From Triplophysa rosa (lineage: Eukaryota; Chordata; Actinopteri; Cypriniformes; Nemacheilidae), in assembly GCF_024868665.1 (NCBI RefSeq), contig NC_079891.1, positions 24,218,103-24,282,102 of the forward strand: a stretch of DNA of 64,000 nucleotides. Reading direction: 5' to 3'. The number at the start of each line of letters is the position of its first letter. Positions within the stretch are counted from its first letter, which is position 1. A program made the translations under genes and the position numbers. The notes under the pieces were generated by a model. It was not told the origin of the DNA and ran no database searches. It was given only the letters and a program-made list of their open reading frames with translations. Below are positions 8,536 through 52,032 of the stretch, in pieces.

Positions 8536-9530
8536 CAGGGGCGGAGCTACGGGTGGGCCTGGGATTGACAGCTGGCCCACCCAGTCAGAGCCAAGAAATT
8601 TATTTTTAATATTATTAAATATTCATTTTAAGCTTAATTCTAAATTTGAATTGTATAAATTAAATAAAAACATTTGAATTGTTTGTTTATTATTATTATT
8701 AATAATAATAATAATAATATCCAAATCAGGGGCGGATTTACCATTAGGCAAAGGTAGGCAATCGCCTGGGGCCCCGAGCTACCAGGGGCCCCCAAAAGGA
8801 AGAGGTGGACTTAACCAAAAAGCCATGTCAGCAGCCATAGAGCCCCAAGTAATCATCAATATAGTCGGGATATCCCTGTTAACGTTTTACGTTATTACAT
8901 CTGTACGAAGGCACTCCCAACCCCATTATAGATTAGAGTGGACCATTCCATTAGCACTGTATATGCGCGAGACGAGTTCGACACCAGCTAGAGAAAGTTA
9001 ACGCAGCGGCGGAATTAGTAGAACTGCCCACAGCGAGAGCGTCATTGTGTGGTACATTAGCTGCAAAACGAAGTAAAAGTCGCAGGGAAATAAAACAACA
9101 AAGAACGCAGCTACACCAGTGGAGAGGAAAAAAGACGATTTACAAATGATTGTTGCCAAAGTCTCTGCTTTTTCCCCACACAAACTCCACCGCTGCTCCT
9201 ACAGCAGCAGCGCCTCTCTCTCCCGCCAGACACAGCACTCTCCCGGCCACGAGCAATGATAATGTGCCGGTGAGTATTTCTCCATGAACACAGACAACAG
9301 TTATAATGACTGACGACCAAAACATCTGTGAAACAAAGAACGCTGTGCGCTTGGTAGGAGAGGGCCAGTTCAAGGGTAGAAAGGTTGTTTGACTCCGCTG
9401 CGCAGATCGATGGGCACATAAAGACATAATATAATAACGTCAGTACAGTGCTAACGATTCGTACTGTATGCACTAGTACAGAAATTTGGTCACATTTAAA
9501 TGCATGAAAGCAGGGGCGTCGCACCCGTGG
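8536..9530. mobile_element. Cluster of hAT-like element ends
   Basis: Three blocks begin with the CAGGGGCG signature typical of hAT terminal inverted repeats, at 8,536 (CAGGGGCGGAGC), 8,727 (CAGGGGCGGATTTACC) and 9,511 (CAGGGGCGTCGCACC). The middle block continues into a GGGGCCCC-rich segment. Their partner ends were not located, so these are probably truncated copies. The 137-codon minus-strand frame at 9,111-9,524 lies across them and resembles no known protein. Confidence 0.5.
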
Positions 9531-9647
9531 GGGATACTTTTCCCGGTGAGAGGGTTCAACACCCGCACTTTTCCTGCAGTTTTTCCGCAGTTTTGCACAA
9601 ATGTATGGAAGCCCGTTTCCGCCATGTGATAAAAAAAATCAGACTTT

Positions 9648-10125
9648 AAAAAGTCATAATTATGAGATAAAAAGTCATAATTATGAGATAAAAAGTCAAA
9701 ATTATGAGATAAAAAGTCATAATTATGAGATAAAAAGTCAAAATTATGAGATAAAAAGTCATAATTATGAGACAAAAAGTCAAAATTATGAGATAAAAAG
9801 TTATAATTATGAGATAAAAAGTCATAATTATGAGATAAAAAGTCAAAATTATGAGATAAAAAGTCATAATTATGAGATAAAAAGTCAAAATTATGAGATA
9901 AAAAGTCAAAATTATGAGATACAAAAATCGAAATTATGAGATAAAAAATCATAATTATGAGATAAAAAATCATAATTATGAGATTGAAAGTTATAATTAT
10001 GAGATTGAAAATCAAAATTATTAGATAAAAAAATCAAAATTATGAGATTGAAAATTATAATTATGAGATTAAAAAAAAGAAATTATGAGATTGAAAATCG
10101 TAATTATGGCATAAAAAATTGAAAT
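9648..10125. repeat. 21-bp minisatellite
   Basis: About 23 tandem units with consensus AAAAAGTCATAATTATGAGA plus T. Two versions, with CATAATTATG or CAAAATTATG, are interspersed. Because 21 is divisible by three, all frames stay open on both strands, giving SHNYEIK-type repeats on plus and SHNYDFL-type on minus. These are translation artefacts, not a protein. Units toward the right end are more diverged (GATTGAAA in place of GATAAAAA). Confidence 0.9.
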
Positions 10126-12891: not shown

Positions 12892-15800
12892 CTACACAAC
12901 AAATGATGATTTCTGTCTGAATTCCCCCTAAAACAGAACAAAATAATTACTAAATAAATGTGACATTTGTACCAGCACCACTATTCTAATGGTACATTAG
13001 AATGCAAGAGTAGATTAAATACACATATCTTGTGAGATTATTTTATGAAATTAATTAATTCTATAGTTTATGTAAGAGAATTTAAAGATGTACTTACATC
13101 CCCATCATCCACATCTTCTGTTCGTGGCTGTGTATAGACAGCTGTTTTCGGCTTGCTGTGAGAAAGAATTTATATCATTACATTTTATAAAATGTATAAC
13201 TAAGTTTATGAATCTGACAGTGAACTGCGTGACACTGAATTTTATTTACCAGTTTTACTTTTGATGCTAAACCATACAATGACATTCCAATTGATAAAAT
13301 ATGTTCAGTGGGATTTAAGCCTGGGCCTTGATTTTTCACCCTAAACTGAGTAAACCATTTGTGTATTGACCATGCTATGTGCACAAAAATTACCAATAAA
13401 AAAAACACTGAAAACACAAAATTATGTAATTGCATGGCAAAGTATTTTATTTATCATCAGAGACATTGCTGGAATAACCAGACCATTTTGGGACAAGTAG
13501 TGTAAATGTGTGCCAAATAAACAAAACGTCTTACCTTTCAGCCACTTCTGTAAAGACAATGAAAAAACACAAATGAGTCAGATCTGTTTCGATAAATATT
13601 TTAAAATGTTCTCGCTCTCTCGCACGCACACAACTTACTTGGTAGATATCCTTTTTTGTTGGCATACCAGAGTCCAAAGAGGAGCAACCCTACTGCAAGC
13701 AAAGCCACAATAACACCAGCAACAATGCCACCAACATTTACATCACCTAATATAAAAATAACAAAACAAAAACATCCATTAGACAAATGACAGACAGCTG
13801 TTTATAGGCCCGAGTAGTTGATTTAGATAAACAATATTCATTTAGAGATTTAATTATTTATAGTAAGATCCTTATTTGTGCCCTTTCTGAACAGCGTTAC
13901 TTACGGACATCCATTTGTACTGTATCACCACGCATAGCACCTTCACTATTAACAGCCTCACAGTAATATGAACCAATATCCATCTTAGATGCACTTGGGA
14001 ACTCCTGATCAGATACAAAAACAAAGCATTTAACAATTTACCTGACAAAATTCACCTGAAAATCAGATAAAAAATAAAAATAAAAACATTACAAAGAACA
14101 ATGTAGTACAATCTCTAACACTAAATGCACAAAACTGTTTCAATCTAACTGATGTTAATAGACCAGTTACATTCTTAAATTGACAAAGTTTTGATTATGT
14201 TGTTCCAGAAACATTCCACTTACTCACCAGGTTACCATTGAACGTGTTCATCTTGTATGTGAGGTTCTTAAAATTGGGGAATTTGCTTGGATCCTCTGGG
14301 AGAGGAGAACCGTTTTTGTACCATTTATAGGTGGGTGGGGGGGAGCCGACCAGATCGACACAGGTCAGCAGGGCATTACTTCCAGTTGTCACTGATGAAG
14401 GAATTCTGGATACAGGCTTGCTAGGAGGCACTGCAAAGAACAAAGGGAATTTACGAGGCTGCTTGGTGTCTCATGCATAAATTATTCAAAAACATAAATT
14501 CTGCAGCCTAACATCATGAAAACGCTTTGCCTAATTCACACATACACTAATCCATCTAAATAAAGTCATCCTTAAAGCTGCAATACTATCTAAAATGTTT
14601 TCCAATAATATAAGAGCCATAACACTTTTTTTGCGTGTGCAAGCATCAAACACTAACTGGAAGCAAGAAAGTTTATGATTCAAATTTACCAAGAACAGTA
14701 AGCTTGATGGTTTTCTCAGCATACCCATTGTTGCCAAACACCTCACAGTCATAGTCTCCTGTGTCTGCTCGAGTCACCTTGTTAAGCCTCAGTCCTTCAT
14801 CATACACAGTGATACGACCTTCGTATTTATCTAATGAAATAAAAAAGATGTACATCGCATATCATTGGAAGGACACAATAATAAACCAGATAAGAGCTAA
14901 TCACCGCTGTACATTTCCAATTCTTACCAATCGGCTTGCCATCAAAGTAGACGAATGACTGAGAGCCTTTAATATCTTTGAACTTCCATTCTATTCTGGG
15001 GGATGATCCAAACGTAGCAGAGTATTTACATTTCATGTCCACCCCTGAAATAAAACACAGTTAGTAGGCTGAATCTGATTTGTAACCCTTTAGTTTTTCC
15101 TTATCAACACATACAATCATCATTGAGTGGAGATCATCTAAAACAGACTTGTTGCCCATAAAAAAGGTTCTCTAGTACAACAAGATTTCAGATTCATCAT
15201 CATTTTCTAAAACAAAAAGGACTATTCTTGAAGCCAAAAACTAAGAAAGCCACATTCTTTCATACATCATTTCCATTTGGCTCTGCAATTACACAAAGAC
15301 TAAAAACAGCAACTTGCCTTCATTCTCTTTCACCTTTAGTGCAGGATTACCAACATCAACCCAAAACTCACACAAGCCTGTAGAAAGAAAAAAAATGAAA
15401 CTTGGATCAGTAACACACCAAACTACTTATGTTGTCACAAATAAACACTAACATACACATTATACAAATATACACACACATGTCTGGTTTACCATCTCCG
15501 TGGGGACAGTCCATAGGCGTAATGTTTTTTGTACTGTACAAACTGTATATTCTATCCCCTATCCCTAACCCTAAAGATCATAGAAAACTTTTTGCATTTT
15601 TAGATTTAAAAAAAATATTGTTCTGTACAATTGATTAGCTTTTTTGCCCATGGGGACCTCAATTTTGGTCCCCACGGGTGACACGAGTCCCCATGTGTTG
15701 GTGTGCATTCAGGTTTAGGTCCCCACCGGGACATACAAACATGAACACACACATACACACACACACAAGTTTATACTGTATTGTTTTGTTGCTTCAGAGA

Positions 15801-30467: not shown

Positions 30468-31230
30468 TCACAGAAGCTCTAACATTAGTGGGGAAGTGAT
30501 GAAAACTAGCAGGAACACTACTCCACTGTGCTGCAGGGTACAATAGGCGGAACAAGTGATTAGCTTACCTGTGGAAAAAAAAAACATTTATATATAAATA
30601 AAAATGAACAAACATGGAGCATTAAATGTTTCCACTACCAGTGAAATCTACTCATAGTTTGAATAACAAAAACTGACTGTCTTTAGGAATATCAACAGTG
30701 AAAAACATATCATTTTTGTCTTACGTTTTTCCACAGTTGCTGTCAATGTTGTCGCTTGGCTGGCAGTCTGTTTGATGTTGCAGACGAAGCTTTCGGGTTT
30801 GTCATTTGAGAGACCAGTTAGATTCAGCAGACACATTTTCTGTTCAAAAGCGAGTTTGGCTCGCATCTTGAAGGTGCTGTCTGGCTCAATACTGGCATTG
30901 GAGGAGGCCACAATCTTCCCCTCTGACGTAAAGTGGCAAACACTGATCTTGGGGTCTGGAGTTGGAGCTGGAGTAAACTTGCAGATCATTCGAAGATTTT
31001 GCTCCTTGGTCAAGCAGGATGTAATTTCAAGTGAAGTCTGGGCAGTAGCCATGCCTGGAAAATTATAACACTAACTTATATCTATTATTTATGTAGGCTA
31101 AAAAAATTGCAGATAGTGATATGTGGCATCTGAGCTTGAAAAAAATAGCAAAAAAGCATAAGCTGAGCAAGGGGAGAAATGCTACTTTACCCAACAGACA
31201 AAGTGTGGCAATAACAGTATAGCACATCAT
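30468..31230 (-). CDS. thy1: Thy-1 membrane glycoprotein (CD90)
   Basis: Small GPI-anchored single-Ig-domain surface protein of neurons and other cells. Three coding exons keep phase: 31,191-31,230; 30,725-31,054; 30,468-30,568, giving 156 aa (human 161). The signal peptide is MMCYTVIATLCLLG. The four classical Thy-1 cysteines are present (C27 in TSCLTKEQ, C38, C105 in FVCN, C129 in LITC), plus an extra pair C53 and C88. N-glycosylation sequons are NAS and NLT. The C-terminus has C129-S-A as the likely GPI attachment position, followed by a hydrophobic tail GVVFLLVFITSPLMLELL. The start is the first ATG of an ATGATG pair downstream of a UTR acceptor at 31,267; the upstream ATG at 31,284 lies outside the exon. 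A likely non-coding exon ends at 32,022 (AAAG then GTAAGG). A divergent paralogue lies 2.7 kb upstream. Confidence 0.92.
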
Positions 31231-31627
31231 CTTCGGTACACCTTGAAATAAACGGCACAGTGGAACCTGTAGATGACAAAACAACCAAACACTTATAACT
31301 CAATACATGCATCAAACACTCAGTGACCGTGTTTTGGGTGTGTCCCGCTTTAAAATGTTTGCATAAGAGGAGATTTCATGTAGGCCTAACAGTTTAGTGC
31401 TAAATAGTTGATGTCTCAATACGGGTTGGGTAATCTGAGTAGGCTATCTGAGAACATAAAAACAAAACAAAAATATTACTTTAATAACACGACACTATAG
31501 GCCTACTAGGCACCGTTACAGCTCTAAAGTGGGCAAGACCGAACTCGTTAAGATTAATTAGAAATGACATCCACCCTTCGGCAGGAATTCCGTTTGTTTT
31601 TACATGGCGCCACACCTTAACAAAATG

Positions 31628-31850
31628 ATGAAGAGTTTGGTTCCAAAATGAGATAACTCCGTTTTTATAATCACGTTTTTTATAATGTTTTCATTGTGTT
31701 TTATTATATTAGTTAGCCTAGCTGTATTTGTTTTTTGTTATTATGGCTTAAAATCAAAACAAACCAACTGCAGCTTGATTTATATTAATTGGAATGCACA
31801 ATAAAAAAACATGATTTTTGAAATTCTCATTTTGGAACCAAATTCTTCAT
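31628..31850. mobile_element. GAAGAGTTTGG-family MITE, copy 2
   Basis: The ends are inverted repeats: ATGAAGAGTTTGGTTCCAAA on the left and TTTGGAACCAAATTCTTCAT on the right. The interior is shared with the 19.2-kb copy. It lies in the thy1 5' UTR intron. Confidence 0.85.
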
Positions 31851-32099
31851 ATATATTTTGTAGCCTACAGTCAAGAGAAATTAAGGTTGCTCAGTCCGCC
31901 CCATTTTTGTTGTTGCTGTTTGCAAGCATCATAGTCGAACATTTTAAATGTTCACATTGATATAGAAAAGCTGTGGTTCAGGATGCAAAAAAGTTAGAGA
32001 AAACAGAGATTCTAACCTTACCTTTACCGCTTTCGGATGCTGTAGCTAGTCCGTTTTAGTTTCCTAAATGAACACAACTGAATGAAGCACGCCCATCAC

Positions 32100-33950
32100 C
32101 GCTGTATCGGTAAATTAGCTACCGTCCCATTGCGACCAGCCTACACTTGTTTTTTGACTACACACGTCATTTGCCACAAGTTCTTGTTTTTGAAAACAAC
32201 AACTACTCAGTACTTAGGCCTATGTAAACAAGATGGGTAAAACAGCTTATAGGTATACTTTTTTAAGCAGCCTTTACAAATATTAAAAACGAATTTATTA
32301 AGTGTGCTTATTTTAAATTATATATTTTATTAAGTGTATATTTTTAAATAATGAAATGTAACACAAGGATTACATTCACACTAACACTAACGTCTCTTCA
32401 CACTTCTTGTTCCTGAAATGACCATGTGGCAGACGTGTATAGTGTATAGGCCTAGCAGATATAGCAGAAAAGTGACAAACGGGAAGGATTTAATAATAAA
32501 TATAACATATACACACTTTACTCTCTGCCTTCCTTTATTGAATTCTGTGACATAGATCCTTCATAAAATGACATAGTAGAACACAGTGAAAAAGAAATCT
32601 CAGTTTTCCCACACAATTATATGTGCATGAAATGTGCATGTCAGTGTATATTGCAATGCAATACCTCATTATAGTCATTATAGACTAAATTAAAGCTAAT
32701 ATATGCAGCACAGTTTAGTTATACCTTAATCAAACCTAAGGCACGTAGAGATGGGGTGGGGGGCAAGTGGGAAATGCAGTGCAATTAAGCTTGTGCATAA
32801 AGAAGCTGCACTGTACATGCGATCACAATGGAAGACACATGAATATATGTTTGAGTACATCAAAATACTTATGTCAAGCATACTTAGATTGCTTTCATAT
32901 TGTCATTAAAATACACATGTTTTCCTTAAAACTTGTCCTTGGATTGTTTTTGTGAACAGGATACATACAATAGTTCTGACCTGTGCATCAAGTGCAAGTT
33001 CTGCAATACAATATATGTGCAGAGGGGGTGTCCTTCAGGGCCGTCCATAAACAGTGCAGGAAACAAACGGAGTTGTTATGGCCATGATAATGTGTTTAAA
33101 CAGCACTATAATGCATTTTGAACTGGACAAATAACAAGGATCAATAAACCAGCCAACCAATCAACCAGATTATAGATTATAATGAATCAATCAGTTATTT
33201 CTAGAAACATTAGAAAAATGTCCGCAATAAAAACCATATCCTATTGAGCATATGAGTTGTCAAGGAAGCACATGACTATTTTATAAAGGTTCATATATCA
33301 AAACAATAACAAACAATCTGATAACAAAGAATGTATGTTTTGGACGATGAAGATCATTTCAGGTTTCGGCATTTATTGTTTGGTGCTATATTATGTATGC
33401 TATGCAATAAGATGGCAGTGTGATTGCAAACTGACAAGCAACACTAATCTGACTATATGATCATATCAGACTGTCCTGTCATAGATAGGAATTGATCATG
33501 AACAGATGTGGTTACTTTTGTGATAGTTGCTGCAACAACAGCTGTTTGTTCGTTAAAGGAAAAGTTCATCTCAAAATGCATGCGCATTCGGTTGGGCAAA
33601 AAGTGCAAGTCTTCCTCAATATCGAAATCATCAGACATTTTGCGAAGATCAGCTTATATACAGCCTGCGTCTGCTTGTAAACACAGAGTTGCGCTTCCAG
33701 GTTGTCAGTCAGAATGCCGGCGTCTGCCCCCACCGAATGCACATGCGTCGAAGTGCTCTCGTGAACACGCACCATAGACTGACAAGACAGAGGAGAATAT
33801 ATCGATTAAAGTCGTTATTTTGGTTTGTTTTTCGCACATAAAGTATTCTCATTGCTTCAAAAAAATAAATTCAAAACAAACAAAAAGTGAAAACTAAAAG
33901 AAAGTTCACAATTTTGAGAGGATGAAATGTTTTAGCTTGCTAGATGTGCG
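32100..33950. other. Gene-free spacer between the two Thy-1 family genes
   Basis: Mostly AT-rich sequence. It would contain the 3' UTR of the Thy-1-like gene and the thy1 promoter. A minus-strand frame at 33,453-33,638 (starting MSDDFDIEEDLHFLPN) looks like a repeat-derived fragment. No other exon was identified. Confidence 0.5.
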
Positions 33951-33955
33951 ACTGG

Positions 33956-35650
33956 TCATCCTGACAAGAACCCAAGAGACATCGGAAGTGATATGACAAC
34001 TCCAAGCATCCATGGTCCTGTATGGAACAACATGCTTATGGCAGAACACACCAGTAGATTTCCTAAGACAGATCATAGGAGAGACAGAGAAAGACCATAA
34101 GTAGTGGATTAAAGGAGGAAGAACACCCATATTGTGTATTGACATTGTGAAAGACGGTGACAACACCTCAAATCTAAACGAGCTAAACATCCCACCGCAT
34201 GTTAAAGAGGGACTTTGTTGGGACATGTTTTAACTCACTTTGGTGGAACGCCATACTGTTCTCTTTCCAGGTGCTGCCCTGGTAAACCCTGCAGGTGTAA
34301 GTGTATGCACGGTCATCGGACAAGGGCATCCAGGTGAGGCGACAAATGTTAGCGGCCACCAAGGAGACGTTGACTCGCCGTCGGGTCTCAATAGGTGGTA
34401 TCAGCTGAACTGGAGTGTTTGGGTAGGTGGATCCCATAAGTCGACCATCCTGTTTGAACTCACAAAATGGCCCAGGGATCTTGTGAGTCTCTGGGAATAT
34501 ACAGTCAACCTGAAGATTTCTCTCTATGTAGGTAATGCAAGAATACATTTGTGGCCCTCGAGGAGTGTGCCAGAACCACGAGTCAAAGTCCAAGAAGCCG
34601 GGTTTCTGGTATGGGTTTGTGGCACTGACCACACCCACCATACATGACAGACACACTGTTGGGAGAAATCACAACCATGTCAATGTCTGAAACATGAAAT
34701 TTGATTTTGGGTTTTTCTAATGCCACATGTGTCAAGTAATATTTTTACAAATGTAGATTTACACAGATCCAGACCTTTTTTTATCTTAGTTCTTATATGT
34801 ACATATATCTATATATTATAATATTACAGCCAACAATGTATAACATTAATACCACATTTGTACTTAATAAATAAATCGATTTTTAAACTATGCCAACAAA
34901 ACAACTTTTCTGCTCTTATCCTGAGACATGCCACTCACTGTCCACAGTTAAATATGTAGAAGAAAATATTTTTAGGACCACAGATGTCAGGAAGGGCAAC
35001 GGAACCCAATTGATTGCCCAGTATTGTTTTGCACTTTCTGACTTTGGGATGTTTGACCCATGTAGGTATCTCTATACTTGCAAGTGTTCATGGGTTTAGC
35101 ATAGAATGAAATAAAGAAAACAATATCATAATATCCTTTTGGATGTCCTCTTATGGTTTCAGGTTCTAAATTGTGTAATGAAGAGTAGGGTATTTGAATT
35201 AACAGTTTTGGACACTATATACAGTGTATATATATGCGGTACAGAAGATCATGTCTGAATCTTGTAGCTCAGCAGCACACCTTTTACCTCTCTACGATCA
35301 CCAAACAAACTTTATATTGATACATATTCAAAAACGTTGCTTGATTTATCTGAGATCATAAAACTGCATATATAATACAAGAACTCGATTTGATTGTTTT
35401 TCTTATTTTCTTATTCTTCCATTGCTGCCAGTGCCTGAAATTAAATGTTGCTCAAATGTTTACAGGCCTCTATACAAAATTATCTTGAAAACTTTTCTTT
35501 TGTTTTTGAGTTTATATTAAGAGGACATGCTTAAAATAAAATAAACAAAACATGCTTGTATTCATTTACTTGTATAAAATTAAAGGTTTGAAGAAAAACA
35601 TGCTACTTACAAAACAGGATACAAATAGATAGTGATGGATGAGACTTCAT
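33956..35650 (-). CDS. Thy-1-like GPI-anchored Ig protein (tandem paralogue)
   Basis: A second Thy-1 family gene in the same orientation as thy1. Three coding exons keep phase: 35,611-35,650; 34,239-34,655; 33,956-34,062, giving 187 aa. The signal peptide is MKSHPSLSICILFLCLSCMV. All four Thy-1 framework cysteines align (C53, C65, C135 in YTYTC, C158 in LLVC), as does the extra pair seen in the neighbouring thy1 (C78 and C118). One sequon, N109-V-S, is present. The last exon has a strong acceptor (TCTCTGTCTCTCC, then TTAG) and encodes C158-S-A plus a hydrophobic tail WMLGVVISLPMSLGFL, a GPI signal. It carries an unusual insert of about 28 residues between the signal peptide and the Ig domain. 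Exon sizes and phases mirror thy1 (40 nt, large Ig exon, 101/107 nt). Ligand and function are unknown. An upstream non-coding exon is implied by the acceptor at 35,684. Confidence 0.8.
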
Positions 35651-46200: not shown

Positions 46201-47050
46201 TGGAGGATCTATTTACAAAAATGCAATATAATATACATAATTATGTCTTCAGAGGTGTATTCGTCATGTTGTTTCTACAGTAGCCCCAAACGGACAAACT
46301 GCTCTACAGAGCGCGTTTAGTAAACACATTATCTCCTTCGGCAAAGTGAAAACGTGACGACATCTTGTGTCAGGACTAAGGGAGGGGTGGAGTGAGCCAT
46401 TGGTTGTAATTCACAACCTCACCACTAGATGCCGCTAAAGTTCATATGCTGGACCTTTAAAGTATAAAACTGTTGGAAATAGCTGGAGGCCTAATCAAAT
46501 TACCCAAAATATTCAATAAATAAATCCAGTTCCACTCTCATGGTTATCATTTTGTCTATTCTGAAAAAGCTGTGTTTTTAATGCACAAAAAATGCATTGT
46601 GGACTATTGATAACCTAACAATACTGTTTTGTTTCATTCAGACCATCTACTCCAATCTCAGAGCTCATGGAGTATAAGTACGCTCAAAAATGGCTGGAAG
46701 AGCAGCAGGCCAGGGACAGAGTTCTACAAGCCCATCACCACAAGAAGGTACATGGATGTTTATCACAAAATAAATGTATTCTTGATTGTGATGTTGAAAA
46801 AAAATGTGTAAAGTGTCTATTAAATCTGTGCTTTTTTACAGGTTCAGCTTGGGCGTATACAGGACACAAGAACAACCCTGCTTCGCAAGAGTCGGCCCTT
46901 GCCTGAGGCTCCATCCATGTGGAAACTGCCCCGTTTCCAGCAGGTGAAAGCTCCCATGGACCTCAGAATGAACTTTCACTTTCTGGTCACCAATTTTTTC
47001 GAATTAATTTATTCATTTTATCTAAAAATTTTTTCCAATTTATTCAAAAC

Positions 47051-47088
<38 letters not shown>

Positions 47089-47665
47089 TGTTGTGACAGT
47101 GTCAACTATGAACTCATCCAGCTGAAAAATATATGGTGAAAGTAACAATGTATGCCTCAAGCCCTTGCGATTGTTCACACATACACTAACCTCTCCACTT
47201 CAGGTCCTGTTTCTTAATGTTGGTTTGATTCTGAATAACCAATTAAATGAAGTGCGGGTCTTATGCATTGACAAGCAGACAGCTCAGGCTTTCATGTCAG
47301 TAGTACATGAAAATTCTCCATTGAAATTCCCTAATGCTTCCAATAATGGAAGAATCAGACTCCTGCTAAGCTAATGATGGCCCCTAAGTTCATTATACAT
47401 GTCCCAACACTCATTTACGACAACTGACGGAACACAAAAATGCATATGCATGTGTCACACTATATACATTAATATATATACAGTACATTCATTTACAGAA
47501 CACAAACACAAAACAAAGATTTCTTCATTTACATGCACACGCAGGCCACACACACACATTTCCCTTTTACTCTACGTACATTCATATCCCATACTGCTAT
47601 TTTCTTTTAACTCTTCGTTTGCTCTCTGTCTACATTTCCTTTGCAAATCACCCCCGCTCCTCCAT

Positions 47666-47705
<40 letters not shown>

Positions 47706-48701
47706 GTCCTGTGCGCCTGTCTGTCCTGTCGTCCACCCTCAGTTGGCTCTAATGAGGGAGGGTGTTATTTTGGTTGCATGCCTGCGCCGAATTCTCTCTT
47801 GTATGACAGCTGATGGAGAGAGAGAGAGGCGCGTTAACCTTATAAAAGATTTACCTCTGCTCATTACAGCCTGTCAAGTAGCTGTCCTGATAGCACCAGG
47901 TTCGACATTTGCATCCTTGACTCTTTTCTTCATTCTACACTCTTTTTTTTTTCGTTCCTGTCATTTGTTTGTTTGTATTGTCATCTTCTCTTACATCTCC
48001 TTCATTCCATCTTTACTCCTCTTTAATTCAAAGGGTTGTAGAGGAGTTTTTGAGAGGCCACAGATTTTTTTTCGGCTGGAAAACGAAAAAATAAAACAGA
48101 CAAATGGGTATATTTGAAGCAGGATGTGAGTGTGTTTGCTGCTCTAAAGAAGCATTTAGTAAAGGCGTGATTTCTAATTTTTGTTATGTCGTTCACTTAA
48201 AACGTTTCATAAGCATAGCAAATAAACATTAAACATATAAAACTTTTTTTTAAATAACTGGCTGACAGATTTGGAATTTTAAGCCATTGTTCATATTCCT
48301 GTGACAACAAGTTCTATTTTATTTAATACCTGTAAGTACACATTTTAGTCAGTACACATCATTTATGACTATACGCTTCTGTGTATCAAATTCAAACGTT
48401 TTCCATGTTCCAAAATCATGTTACTTATATCTGCCATTCTGTCTCTTGCATATATACTGTACATACAATGTAAATGAATCACATGTGGTTTGTCCTTTGA
48501 AGCTCACCTCATCCTCCATCACACAACATCCCAGTCCACTGAATATGAGAGTAAGATTTATTTGATACCGTTCTGCAGGTGGGACCAGCTCTGGACACCT
48601 TTCGAGACCCTGAAGCCCGCAAGAAAGTGATGATAGCCCACCACTCAGAATCTGCAAGTAGGAGAGGGATTCTGGGTCAAGGCACATACAGAGTGGATTG
48701 A
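37291..48701 (+). CDS. cfap77: CFAP77, ciliary microtubule-associated protein
   Basis: Cilia and flagella-associated protein 77, an axonemal doublet protein placed at the outer junction of A and B tubules in ciliate work (family knowledge). Six coding exons keep phase: 37,291-37,353; 43,697-43,796; 44,365-44,593; 46,642-46,747; 46,842-46,943; 48,579-48,701, giving 240 aa, shorter than mammalian forms. Recognisable family runs are LGKTKSRGLSCPGSDFVYG (exon 2), WHTH, then RDFISLNREGVKSGLVTAKE (exon 3), PSTPISELMEYKYAQKWLEE (exon 4), and VGPALDTFRDPEARKKV with GILGQGTYRV at the C-terminus. No membrane or signal sequence is present. The start is the first ATG (MESPRIGV) after a short leader, with the X-box upstream. 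Intron 1 spans 6.3 kb. It is followed by barhl1 in the same orientation, as in the human 9q34 region. Confidence 0.9.
37760..39600. other. cfap77 intron 1, left part
   Basis: Mixed-composition intronic sequence without clear transposon ends or exons. Parts such as 38,040-38,400 and 38,860-39,110 are less AT-biased than the rest of the window. They could hold regulatory elements, but nothing specific is recognised. Confidence 0.4.
39631..40069. mobile_element. CAGCC-GGAAAAAATTAAGAGACCA family MITE, copy 1
   Basis: Left end CAGCCGCAGAAATATTAAAA followed by GACCACTGCAG; right end CAATGGTCTC, then TTTTTTCCGTGGCTG, its imperfect reverse complement. Inner CCTCAGGAATGACATAGTCA is shared with the copy at 58,035. 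Confidence 0.7.
40906..40932. repeat. (CT)n microsatellite
   Basis: About 13 CT dinucleotides in cfap77 intron 1. Confidence 0.95.
40940..43000. other. cfap77 intron 1, candidate barhl1 regulatory DNA
   Basis: Apart from one MITE (41,428-41,746) this stretch looks unique in the window and is less AT-rich than the flanking repeats, for example 42,040-42,480 with ATTAGC, TAATGA and TTTATTG motifs. Introns of genes beside developmental homeobox genes often host their enhancers, so this is a candidate. I cannot see conservation from one sequence. Confidence 0.3.
41428..41746. mobile_element. Palindromic AAAGGGATAGTTCACCC MITE, copy A
   Basis: Starts AAAGGGCTAGTTCACCCAAA. The second half is the reverse complement of the first (GGTAACCGAACAGCG against CGTTGTTCGGTTACC). 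It belongs to a family with at least five other copies in this window. Confidence 0.9.
45056..45166. mobile_element. AAAGGGATAGTTCACCC MITE, right half only
   Basis: GGAAGAAAGAAAGTCATA, then GGTTTGAAACGACAAGAGGG and TTTTTGGGTGGACTATCAC match the 3' half of the family. The left half is missing, replaced by a short duplication of TTAGAAAAGCATCCAA at 45,016-45,056. Confidence 0.75.
46176..46462. mobile_element. AAAGGTCCAG-family MITE, full copy
   Basis: The ends are TTTAAAGGACCAG and CTGGACCTTTAAA. The interior contains TAGCCCCAAACGGACAAACT and ACCACTAGATGCCGCTAAAG. It lies in the cfap77 intron between exons 3 and 4. Confidence 0.85.
47052..47086. repeat. (GA)n microsatellite
   Basis: About 17 GA dinucleotides in the last cfap77 intron. 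Confidence 0.95.
47667..47702. repeat. (CA)n microsatellite
   Basis: About 18 CA dinucleotides in the last cfap77 intron. Apparent frames through it encode His-Thr runs and are not genes. Confidence 0.95.
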
Positions 48702-48775
48702 CAGAGCTTGTAATTATTACACGTTTGTCTCAGTGCTCCTGCCTGTCAGGATTCTTTTTGATGTATTAATCCTTC

Positions 48776-48781
48776 AATAAA
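48776..48781 (+). terminator. cfap77: cfap77 poly(A) signal
   Basis: AATAAA 75 bp past the cfap77 stop codon, giving a short 3' UTR. Confidence 0.75.
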
Positions 48782-49067
48782 CTATGCTGCTTAATTTGTA
48801 TGCTTATTTTTTATTTCATCTAAACTGTATGAATACTAAATACTGTATAATGATAATATTGATTAACTCTTACAAAATAGGAAGGTTCAGATTTTTTAAT
48901 TATAGAAAACTGTCATTAAAGTGCTAAATAAAAACACAGTAGGCTACCTGGTGTTAAATCCCTATCTGCGATTTATTTAAGGAGAAAGGAGGAGGATGAC
49001 TGTGTTTGTTCCCCTCCCACAACACGTACGTGATGATCACCCCCCCCACCAAAAAAAGAAAACCCTC

Positions 49068-49150
49068 TAACCAATAACGACGTGGCGCTCAGGACAAAAG
49101 CAGAATGGACACCTTTAAAAGCGTATTCCTCCTCCAGCATTGGCTGATTC
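49068..49150 (+). promoter_or_regulatory. barhl1: Candidate barhl1 core promoter
   Basis: An ACCAATAACG CCAAT box (about 49,069), a TTTAAAAG TATA-like element (about 49,114) and a second inverted CCAAT (CATTGGCTG, about 49,139) lie 450-550 bp upstream of the barhl1 ATG. A palindromic ACGTACGT occurs at about 49,026. The start site is not determined. Confidence 0.4.
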
Positions 49151-49616
49151 CTTGACGGTGTTAGTTTCAGGTCGTGGAGATCACTGCTTGTGTTTATACT
49201 CTCTTACACAGGTTTAGTCCTTGCAAACCAGGCTAGGACTTTACACGTCAGGTCAGAGGATCTAATGGTTTAGTATGGTTGTTGTTGTAAGAGATCTATG
49301 TAAGAGTTTTAGATTTTAAAATTTGGAGAACGATTCTCTCGTCTTATGTTGTACCTGTCCATGGTGCTGAAATTGACATTGAGGAAGTACGAGAACATTT
49401 ACAACAAAACTGAACTGCATTCAACAACAGGAGGATCTGGTTGAAATCAATGATAAGTAGTGAGCGGACTTTTTTGGGACAGGCTCGAAGGAGTGTTTAA
49501 GAAGGGTAAAATATGATCTGATTTTAATGTGGATGTGTTCCTCTATATTACCAAAATTAGTGTCAGAAAGAACAAATGCACATTTGAAATCCACTCAACT
49601 CCGTGCTGTACTCACG

Positions 49617-52032
49617 ATGGAGGTATCCACAAACGGGTCAAGCTTTGGAATCGACTCTATACTTTCTCACAGACCTACAAGTCCGTGTATTTCTAAGGGA
49701 GAATGCAGGTCTCCGGTGGAGTTGATCTCGCGGTATGACATGGACAGTGACTGCTCCTCGCCTCCCTCACCTAGACGGAACTCTGTGGAAGAAGCGGTGC
49801 AAAGACACGCCCGCACTCTGGGACTGGACTCTCCTTTACAAATATCCCAGCAGCCGCGAACAGTAACGTCCTCGTTTCTGATCAGAGACATACTTGCGGA
49901 CTGTAAACCCCTGGCGGCATGTGCTCCTTATTCCAGTCATGGACAGTCAGCCCAAGATGCTGAGGACTGCATGGATAAACTTCACAGCAATTCGTCATCG
50001 GACAGTGAATTCAGGGGTGAGACTACTTTTACATTTTGAACCAAACGAGGACAGTGGCTCAATGTTTAGACGAATATTCGTTCTAGCATAAAAACACAAT
50101 TAGGCTAATATTAATCATTTCGTTATAATTAGTATTATTTAAGAATTTTTGTTTGTTAAAATTTGTAGTTACATTTACGCGCCGTTATGCTATTTATTAT
50201 TTCTAATAAATTGCGTAAAACCGCACCAAAATAAATAGCTAAATATAGTGGTTAAAATATTTTTGATGTCTTAAATCAATGTATAATGGAGAATAAAAAC
50301 TGGAAATATTATGTACATTGTAAAAATAAAACGGAAACTGTGGCCTACTTCTGTTGACGACTCCGAAGACAAATATATCACAATAGTGCATTCATTGGCC
50401 ATTGACTATACTTTCGTTTTTATTGATCCTACAAATGACTTTATTACAGTAACTGGTTGTTGTCAAATGTAGCCTATTTGCAATTGAAACCGTTTAATTA
50501 AAATTAAATGTCTTTTGTGGACGTTTAGCTCGAACCTAAAATAAAAATAGGCCTGCTATAAATTAATATATAAGATATATTTTCTAATCTGAAAGTGTGC
50601 GCACAATTCAAAATATATTTTAAATTGAGAAAAATTGTCTACCTGCAGATCACATTTGGTTTATATTTGACAACCCCGGGAGCATCTTTACAGCCATTAG
50701 CTTTTTGAACTTTTTTGATGCAACGGTATACAACAATTTAATTCGCACACATTCAAGCTATGATTAAAATATTGCATTATTAAAGCAAAAATGAAGTTAA
50801 TACGACGTGGTTCATTTTGGCCAAACTGACAAATATATGTTTATCGTGTATTCTTTTCAGTGAAAGATGAAGGTGATCGAGAAATCTCCAGCAGCAGAGA
50901 CAGCCCGAGATCCCGGTTGAAGAAGCCACGTAAAGCCCGCACAGCGTTCACAGATCACCAGCTGGGGCAGCTTGAGCGCAGCTTCGAGCGTCAGAAATAC
51001 CTGAGTGTGCAGGACAGGATGGAGCTGGCAGCCACTCTCAACCTCACTGACACACAAGTCAAAACATGGTACCAAAACCGCAGGTGAATGATAGCATCTT
51101 GTACAATTATAGGCCAATTCACTGTTGTTCAACAGAAAGCGAACTAACTAACCTTAAGCGAGTTTTGTTTAGCAAAAACAATAAATATCGGCGAAATTTT
51201 ATGCGCTACAGTTCGTTTTTTGTAAACTGTGAAAAACATACAACAACGCAACACATTTAGTCATAAATAATAAATTGATGCACGGAGTATCAATAATTTA
51301 ACTTCCGAGTAGTAATTAAACAATTGCCATAATTATTAATTATTCACGTGAAATGGCTTCTCTGCTGAGTGACAATTTGACGGATGACTGTTGGACGAGA
51401 TATTACACGGATTAATTCTCGAGAAACAAAAACTTTCCACGAAGCCGTAATTGTCCAATGCTTTCGTTTCTCAAATTTACAACACCATGTATAATTACAC
51501 ACAATTACAAAAAATCAATTAGGCCTACATTTAAAAAATAGGCCAGTTTTAAATTGTAAACCGATATCCTGAAATATTAAAAATATAGTCCAACTTAAAT
51601 AAAATGTAAAGTTGATAAATATCTCCTAACGAAATGCATACATTTAATGTTAGTATTAGCTTACTGTGATAATTATGTTCACGTATATTATGGTACATTG
51701 TTATAAATTGTAAGTCAAAGCACTCACAGCTCATGTTATTTTTTCTATACAGAACGAAGTGGAAGCGACAGACAACAGTTGGACTGGAGCTCCTCGCTGA
51801 AGCGGGAAACTACTCAGCACTTCAGAGAATGTTCCCATCACCTTATTTTTACCCACAAAGTTTGGTCTCTAACCTCGAACCGGGACCTGGGTTGTATCTA
51901 TACAGAGGGCCATCAGCACCTCCGCCACCCGTTCAACGGCCTCTCGTACCGAGGATTCTCCTTCACGGTTTTCAGGGCGGCGCAGATCCAGCATCTCTTT
52001 CTTGTGTGATACCTCGACACACACCGCGATGA
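49617..52032 (+). CDS. barhl1: BARHL1 homeobox transcription factor
   Basis: BarH-like homeodomain factor for neural, cerebellar and inner-ear development; nuclear. Three exons keep phase: 49,617-50,016; 50,861-51,083; 51,753-52,032, giving 300 aa (human 327). Two FIL repression motifs are visible, [10 protein letters not shown] (10-19) and [11 protein letters not shown] (85-95). The homeodomain spans about 155-214 ([12 protein letters not shown], then [18 protein letters not shown]) and is split by intron 2 between the two arginines of NRR and TKW, as in the family. The C-terminus has [20 protein letters not shown] and [11 protein letters not shown]. The ATG at 49,617 is chosen because the family begins ME-S-N--FGIDS; the in-frame ATG at 49,527 would add 30 unrelated residues. 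It could be the a or b fish copy. A poly(A) signal lies at 52,670. Confidence 0.96.

Follow-up and report, generated by a model that had tools for sequence, protein, structure and literature searches.

A conserved neighbour of thy1 in Triplophysa rosa is a probable teleost paralogue of Thy-1

Thy-1 (CD90), the product of the THY1 gene, has been known for decades, and what it basically does is still debated. Mammals are not known to have more than one THY1 gene. Here we analyzed a window of 64,000 nucleotides (nt) from the fish Triplophysa rosa, a nemacheilid loach rather than a cyprinid in the strict sense (contig NC_079891.1, positions 24,218,103 to 24,282,102; all coordinates below are positions within this window) in which thy1 has a neighbour, hereafter the sister gene, and we document the gene structure of the latter, its homology to thy1, its cysteine pattern, its predicted fold, its spread in teleosts and its slower change than thy1. 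We consider it likely, with a probability of about 0.72, that the sister gene is a tandem paralogue of thy1 which was present near the base of the teleosts, has been kept since, and encodes a surface protein with a single V-type immunoglobulin (IgV) domain and a glycosylphosphatidylinositol (GPI) anchor. A tandem Thy-1 pair had been proposed in a sequence-only reading of this DNA, and as homologous neighbours the two genes hold up, with the pair also adjacent in Chanos chanos and on contigs of equal length in Triplophysa dalaica. The sister locus is already known as zebrafish si:ch211-215c18.3, with no function found in the literature searched.

Gene structure and homology to thy1

The coding exons of the pair are as follows.

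35650-35611, minus strand: first coding exon of the sister (orthologue of si:ch211-215c18.3), with most of the signal peptide; 40 nt; gapless match to T. dalaica protein P0001
34655-34239, minus strand: sister exon 2, holding the N-terminal extension and the IgV domain; 417 nt; P0001 matches 90%
34062-33956, minus strand: sister exon 3, encoding Cys-Ser-Ala and then a hydrophobic tail free of charge (a probable GPI signal); 107 nt including the stop; sister profile E 2.6e-10
31230-31191, minus strand: thy1 coding exon 1; 40 nt; protein identical to T. rosa P0058
31054-30725, minus strand: thy1 exon 2, IgV domain; 330 nt; human Thy-1 9pms_C hit by the thy1 profile at E 5.8e-08
30568-30468, minus strand: thy1 exon 3, GPI tail, stop; 101 nt; thy1 profile E 8.6e-14

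The sister gene (35650-33956, 187 amino acids) is followed about 2.7 kb downstream on the same strand by thy1 (31230-30468, 156 amino acids), and each gene has three coding exons and two phase-1 introns. The adjacent minus-strand genes of identical exon plan and phases described previously from the letters were therefore correct, with coordinates exact to the base. Phase-1 introns flanking an Ig exon are common in the Ig superfamily, so the common plan is weak evidence when taken alone. The thy1 translation equals P0058, annotated as the thy-1 membrane glycoprotein of T. rosa. Splice sites are ordinary in both genes. The sister gene has splice donors GTAAGT and GTGAGT and acceptors CAG and TAG; its product aligns without gaps over 187 residues with the protein annotated in T. 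dalaica, from which it differs at 13 positions, and therefore both exon junctions are at the same place. Moreover, P0012, from a contig of 1958 bases, carries all three sister exons in one frame, as in spliced RNA; it is 1 of 25 listed sister proteins from short contigs, most of the others reading through past exon 2 in the manner of genomic DNA.

The Ig parts of the two window proteins are identical at 25 of 98 residues (26%), a level too low to show relationship on inspection. Comparison of 17 sister with 10 thy1 proteins by hhalign gave a probability of 99.3 (E 4.8e-20). Once signal peptide and tail had been trimmed off, the score was 95.15, against maxima of 15.6 in 100 column shuffles and 21.6 in 100 shuffles with the cysteines fixed. 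When a thy1 hidden Markov model was run over 1653 frames of the window, it found its own exons, then the sister Ig exon (open frame 34186-34668; E 1.3e-12, and 2.3e-72 with the sister profile), and nothing else came near. These profile comparisons and the scan bear out the suggestion of a homologous thy1 neighbour in tandem, with a single Ig domain and probably GPI-anchored. Fish thy1 also matches human Thy-1 (hhalign 47.8; E 5.8e-08 in the PDB). Judged by such comparisons, the tie of the sister to Thy-1 runs via fish thy1; since thy1 and not the sister is the better match to human Thy-1, it is fish thy1 that is orthologous to human THY1, the sister being a paralogue and not a one-to-one THY1 orthologue.

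General family searches gave little. Pfam returned no family for either window protein at E up to 1; the 17 sister rows hit two chance families and the 10 thy1 rows four odd weak ones, with no Ig model in either case, and because known Thy-1 also fails there, Pfam is uninformative either way. The sister alone had no match among PDB sequences up to E 10, and Rfam has no family in the window.

Protein features and spread among teleosts

The sister product is predicted to be a single IgV domain, in a model made on the T. dalaica orthologue (93% identical), so that the Ig fold expected in the sequence-only reading was obtained as a predicted model. Thy-1 structure 9pms is not among the 50 matches listed by VIA for either predicted model, which gives no sign of difference. 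Across 45 aligned sister proteins, chosen out of 120 listed, 20 columns are invariant. The six cysteines at 53, 65, 78, 118, 135 and 158 are present in 44, 45, 45, 45, 45 and 44 of these rows, the misses at 53 and 158 being incomplete sequences. Four of them are in register with the Thy-1 cysteines by alignment, the last at the anchor site, and would presumably form the same disulfides. The two that remain match an extra pair (C53, C88) found in 10/10 thy1 rows; human Thy-1 has only four cysteines (9, 19, 85, 111), so the extra pair is common to both fish families and not to human. Thus the four cysteines plus extra pair reported for both genes are confirmed in the wider alignments of 45 sister and 10 thy1 rows, as is the tail: its Cys-Ser-Ala start is kept (C 44, S 41 and A 43 of 45), and in the window it is followed by 27 residues without charge (mean hydropathy 1.29), which agrees with a predicted GPI anchor.

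A single sequon (N109), in the column of human N60 by a weak alignment, is found in 45/45 sister rows and 2/10 thy1 rows. Where human Thy-1 has its integrin-binding RLD, 42/45 sister rows have R-[VI]-D, and the aspartate before the B-strand cysteine is in 45/45 sister rows and 1/10 thy1 rows. An insert of about 28 residues after the signal peptide had been described in the sister. There is indeed a stretch of about 28 residues before the first cysteine, but with about 8 in thy1 (putative cleavage sites in both) the excess is only about 20, and it is restricted to otophysans: the 11 otophysan rows have an N-terminal YxKPxFxxxxSWW/F, herring-like, salmon-like and elopomorph rows pass from the signal peptide almost directly to PRGPQ, and many spiny-rayed fish have their own, different stretch, one row being incomplete there. 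Because these groups differ, the 'insert' is, as read from the alignment, a lineage-specific N-terminal extension of otophysans and no hallmark of the sister as such.

Homologues are widespread in teleosts, as a search with the sister product shows: 57 proteins were found by sequence search and 128 matches up to E 0.1 by profile search. Among the 120 of the 128 that were listed, all named sister matches are teleosts, some rows being unnamed and the search depending on shared words, so that it does not show absence elsewhere. The range extends from Megalops, Albula, Gymnothorax, Synaphobranchus, Scleropages and Paramormyrops to cods, pipefish and pufferfish. The thy1 search gave 12 matches, mainly cypriniforms and Hucho, and is no measure of thy1 loss in spiny-rayed fish. 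In the genome of the window there is no second sister copy better than E 0.14. Megalops atlanticus has a second, shorter sister-like protein, P0125, whose contig is not that of P0089 from this species. P0125 is the top sister-type match to the thy1 profile (E 1e-29, with P0024 set aside for its thy1 half), and it may be a copy kept from a genome duplication and intermediate in its features.

Most sister records bear the zebrafish clone name si:ch211-215c18.3 or 'uncharacterized', and at least 11 of those listed are automatically named Thy-1 (P0030, P0041, P0046, P0052, P0053, P0077, P0078, P0082, P0083, P0089, P0125). The gene had been called apparently undescribed; that does not hold for the locus, which is annotated, and holds for its function only, within the literature searched. 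Text searches, which did not reach supplementary tables, found no study of the sister and no papers under the name si:ch211-215c18.3. The pair was also traced in two further species. In Chanos chanos, a single predicted gene model (P0024, LOC115828859) continues directly from exon 2 of the sister to exon 2 of thy1, and because it joins both, the two are in the same order and on the same strand; the fusion is probably a gene-model error, or else a read-through transcript. In T. dalaica, the sister and thy1 proteins both come from contigs of 28938999 bases.

Divergence of the pair and rival explanations

The window proteins were compared with those of other fish as identities over whole proteins.

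T. dalaica: sister 174/187 (93%), thy1 124/156 (79%)
Xyrauchen: sister 151/185, thy1 95/153
Danio (two species): sister 154/187, thy1 84/153
Salmonids (Oncorhynchus sister, Hucho thy1): sister 102/183, thy1 60/142
Chanos (parts of the fused model): sister 74/98, thy1 51/134

The sister changed more slowly than thy1 in 5/5 comparisons, of which the Danio and salmonid pairs use a different species for each gene and the Chanos pair a fused model. A branch of the 31-row tree separates the 21 sister rows from the others (99/100; in 98% of 200 bootstrap trees), and their stem measures 1.77 changes per column; the human branch is 4.43 and the root is unsure. Fast divergence of the sister had been proposed from its distance to thy1. 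Since the stem is long yet the sister is slow within teleosts, where thy1 is the fast one, that proposal is retained for the early period only, and we infer early fast change of the sister followed by constraint.

It is possible, and we put it forward tentatively, that the sister is a neofunctionalised second Thy-1 of teleosts, a tandem copy that changed fast on its stem, gained a fixed partner and then became near-constant, with thy1 still changing fast. On the main reading given at the outset, the sister product would be secreted by means of its signal peptide, its C-terminal Cys-Ser-Ala and hydrophobic tail then being swapped for a GPI anchor. The IgV domain would be held by two Thy-1 disulfides and one extra pair and carry one conserved N-glycan site. 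The protein would be held in the outer leaflet of the membrane, probably within rafts as Thy-1 is, where it may serve a receptor, on its own cell or on an adjacent one, as ligand or cis-modulator. The strong constraint on its face points to a single fixed partner; an integrin-type partner is a guess, made because R-[VI]-D sits at the integrin-binding RLD position of human Thy-1.

Beyond the makeup of the rate comparison, several findings weigh against a paralogue of Thy-1 of this kind. The sister profile has no significant match to human Thy-1 in PDB sequences, only chance-level Ig matches, and its hhalign value with human Thy-1 (18.1) is not above the best shuffle (21.6). The window sister itself has QVD and not RVD, as have, exactly or nearly, 3/45 rows, and the RxD, in strand B before the canonical cysteine, may be mere framework.

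Among the rivals, an old duplicate fares best but seems unlikely to us: the thy1/sister split would predate the parting of ray-finned and lobe-finned fishes, tetrapods having lost the sister. The long sister stem agrees with it, as does the presence of the sister in Elopomorpha and Scleropages; however, hhalign places the sister far nearer to fish thy1 (95) than to human Thy-1 (18), with fish thy1-human at 48, both fish families have the extra cysteine pair which human lacks, and the named rows are all teleost. With so long a human branch and an unsure root, none of these points against it is decisive. We think it quite improbable that the sister does the ancestral work of Thy-1 in teleosts while thy1 drifts to a new or relaxed role. 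Its slower change, its B-strand aspartate, its sequon at the human N60 column and the several fish records that call it Thy-1 would fit such an exchange, but the whole-domain profile of thy1, not that of the sister, is nearer to human Thy-1. That the sister is no working gene at all, whether a pseudogene or an open exon mistaken for a gene by prediction, is very hard to credit, for although the window copy is known from genome sequence alone and the proteins predicted in other fish are mostly pipeline models, its frame and splice sites are intact, its T. dalaica orthologue is gapless at 93%, 20 columns are invariant in 45 fish proteins and one short contig is apparently spliced.

Genomic setting and comparison with known systems

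Upstream of the pair, on the opposite strand, are a CFAP77 exon and a homeobox gene (together 46619-52029).

46619-46903, plus strand: CFAP77 exon; E 1.1e-05
50830-51084, plus strand: homeodomain of the homeobox gene; E 3e-21

We take the homeobox protein to be Barhl1 (barhl1-like). Human CFAP77 and BARHL1 map to chromosome 9 and THY1 to chromosome 11, a setting unlike that of thy1 in the window. The zebrafish bacterial artificial chromosome CH211-215C18, from which the sister takes its name, is described as spanning barhl1a (PMC7264323). A barhl1-like neighbour here and a clone spanning barhl1a there fit orthology of the sister with si:ch211-215c18.3. Elsewhere in the window, another Ig exon (14198-14470, minus strand; Ig_3, E 2.1e-08) lies about 16 kb from thy1 and belongs to a membrane protein of two Ig domains that looks unrelated, and 9476-10033 is a short-repeat array that leaves several frames of either strand open over long stretches, a tandem repeat and no gene.

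A conserved fish paralogue beside thy1 offers a natural comparison of the features kept in both genes with those split between them. As the conserved but functionally unassigned paralogue of a famous molecule, the sister should be of interest to zebrafish groups. A fish record that bears the name Thy-1 may stand for one gene or the other, a point of importance where thy1 serves as a cell marker, and if the sister is indeed a neofunctionalised second Thy-1, it may account for some of the functions credited to Thy-1 in fish.

Among known systems, si:ch211-215c18.3 of zebrafish and other teleosts is the same gene as the window sister, whose product is 82% identical over the whole length to the Danio aesculapii protein. 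With Thy-1/CD90 the sister has in common a small single IgV, four matching cysteines and a hydrophobic tail after Cys, and with neighbouring thy1 the phase-1 plan of three coding exons and the tandem position, but its N-terminus is longer than that of thy1 in otophysans. It differs from human Thy-1 in its added cysteine pair, in having one glycan site instead of three (23, 60, 100), and in RVD in most fish, QVD in the window, in place of RLD. PD-L1, BTN3A1, B7-H4, MOG and other IgV proteins resemble it in fold by prediction alone, with 8-15% sequence identity.
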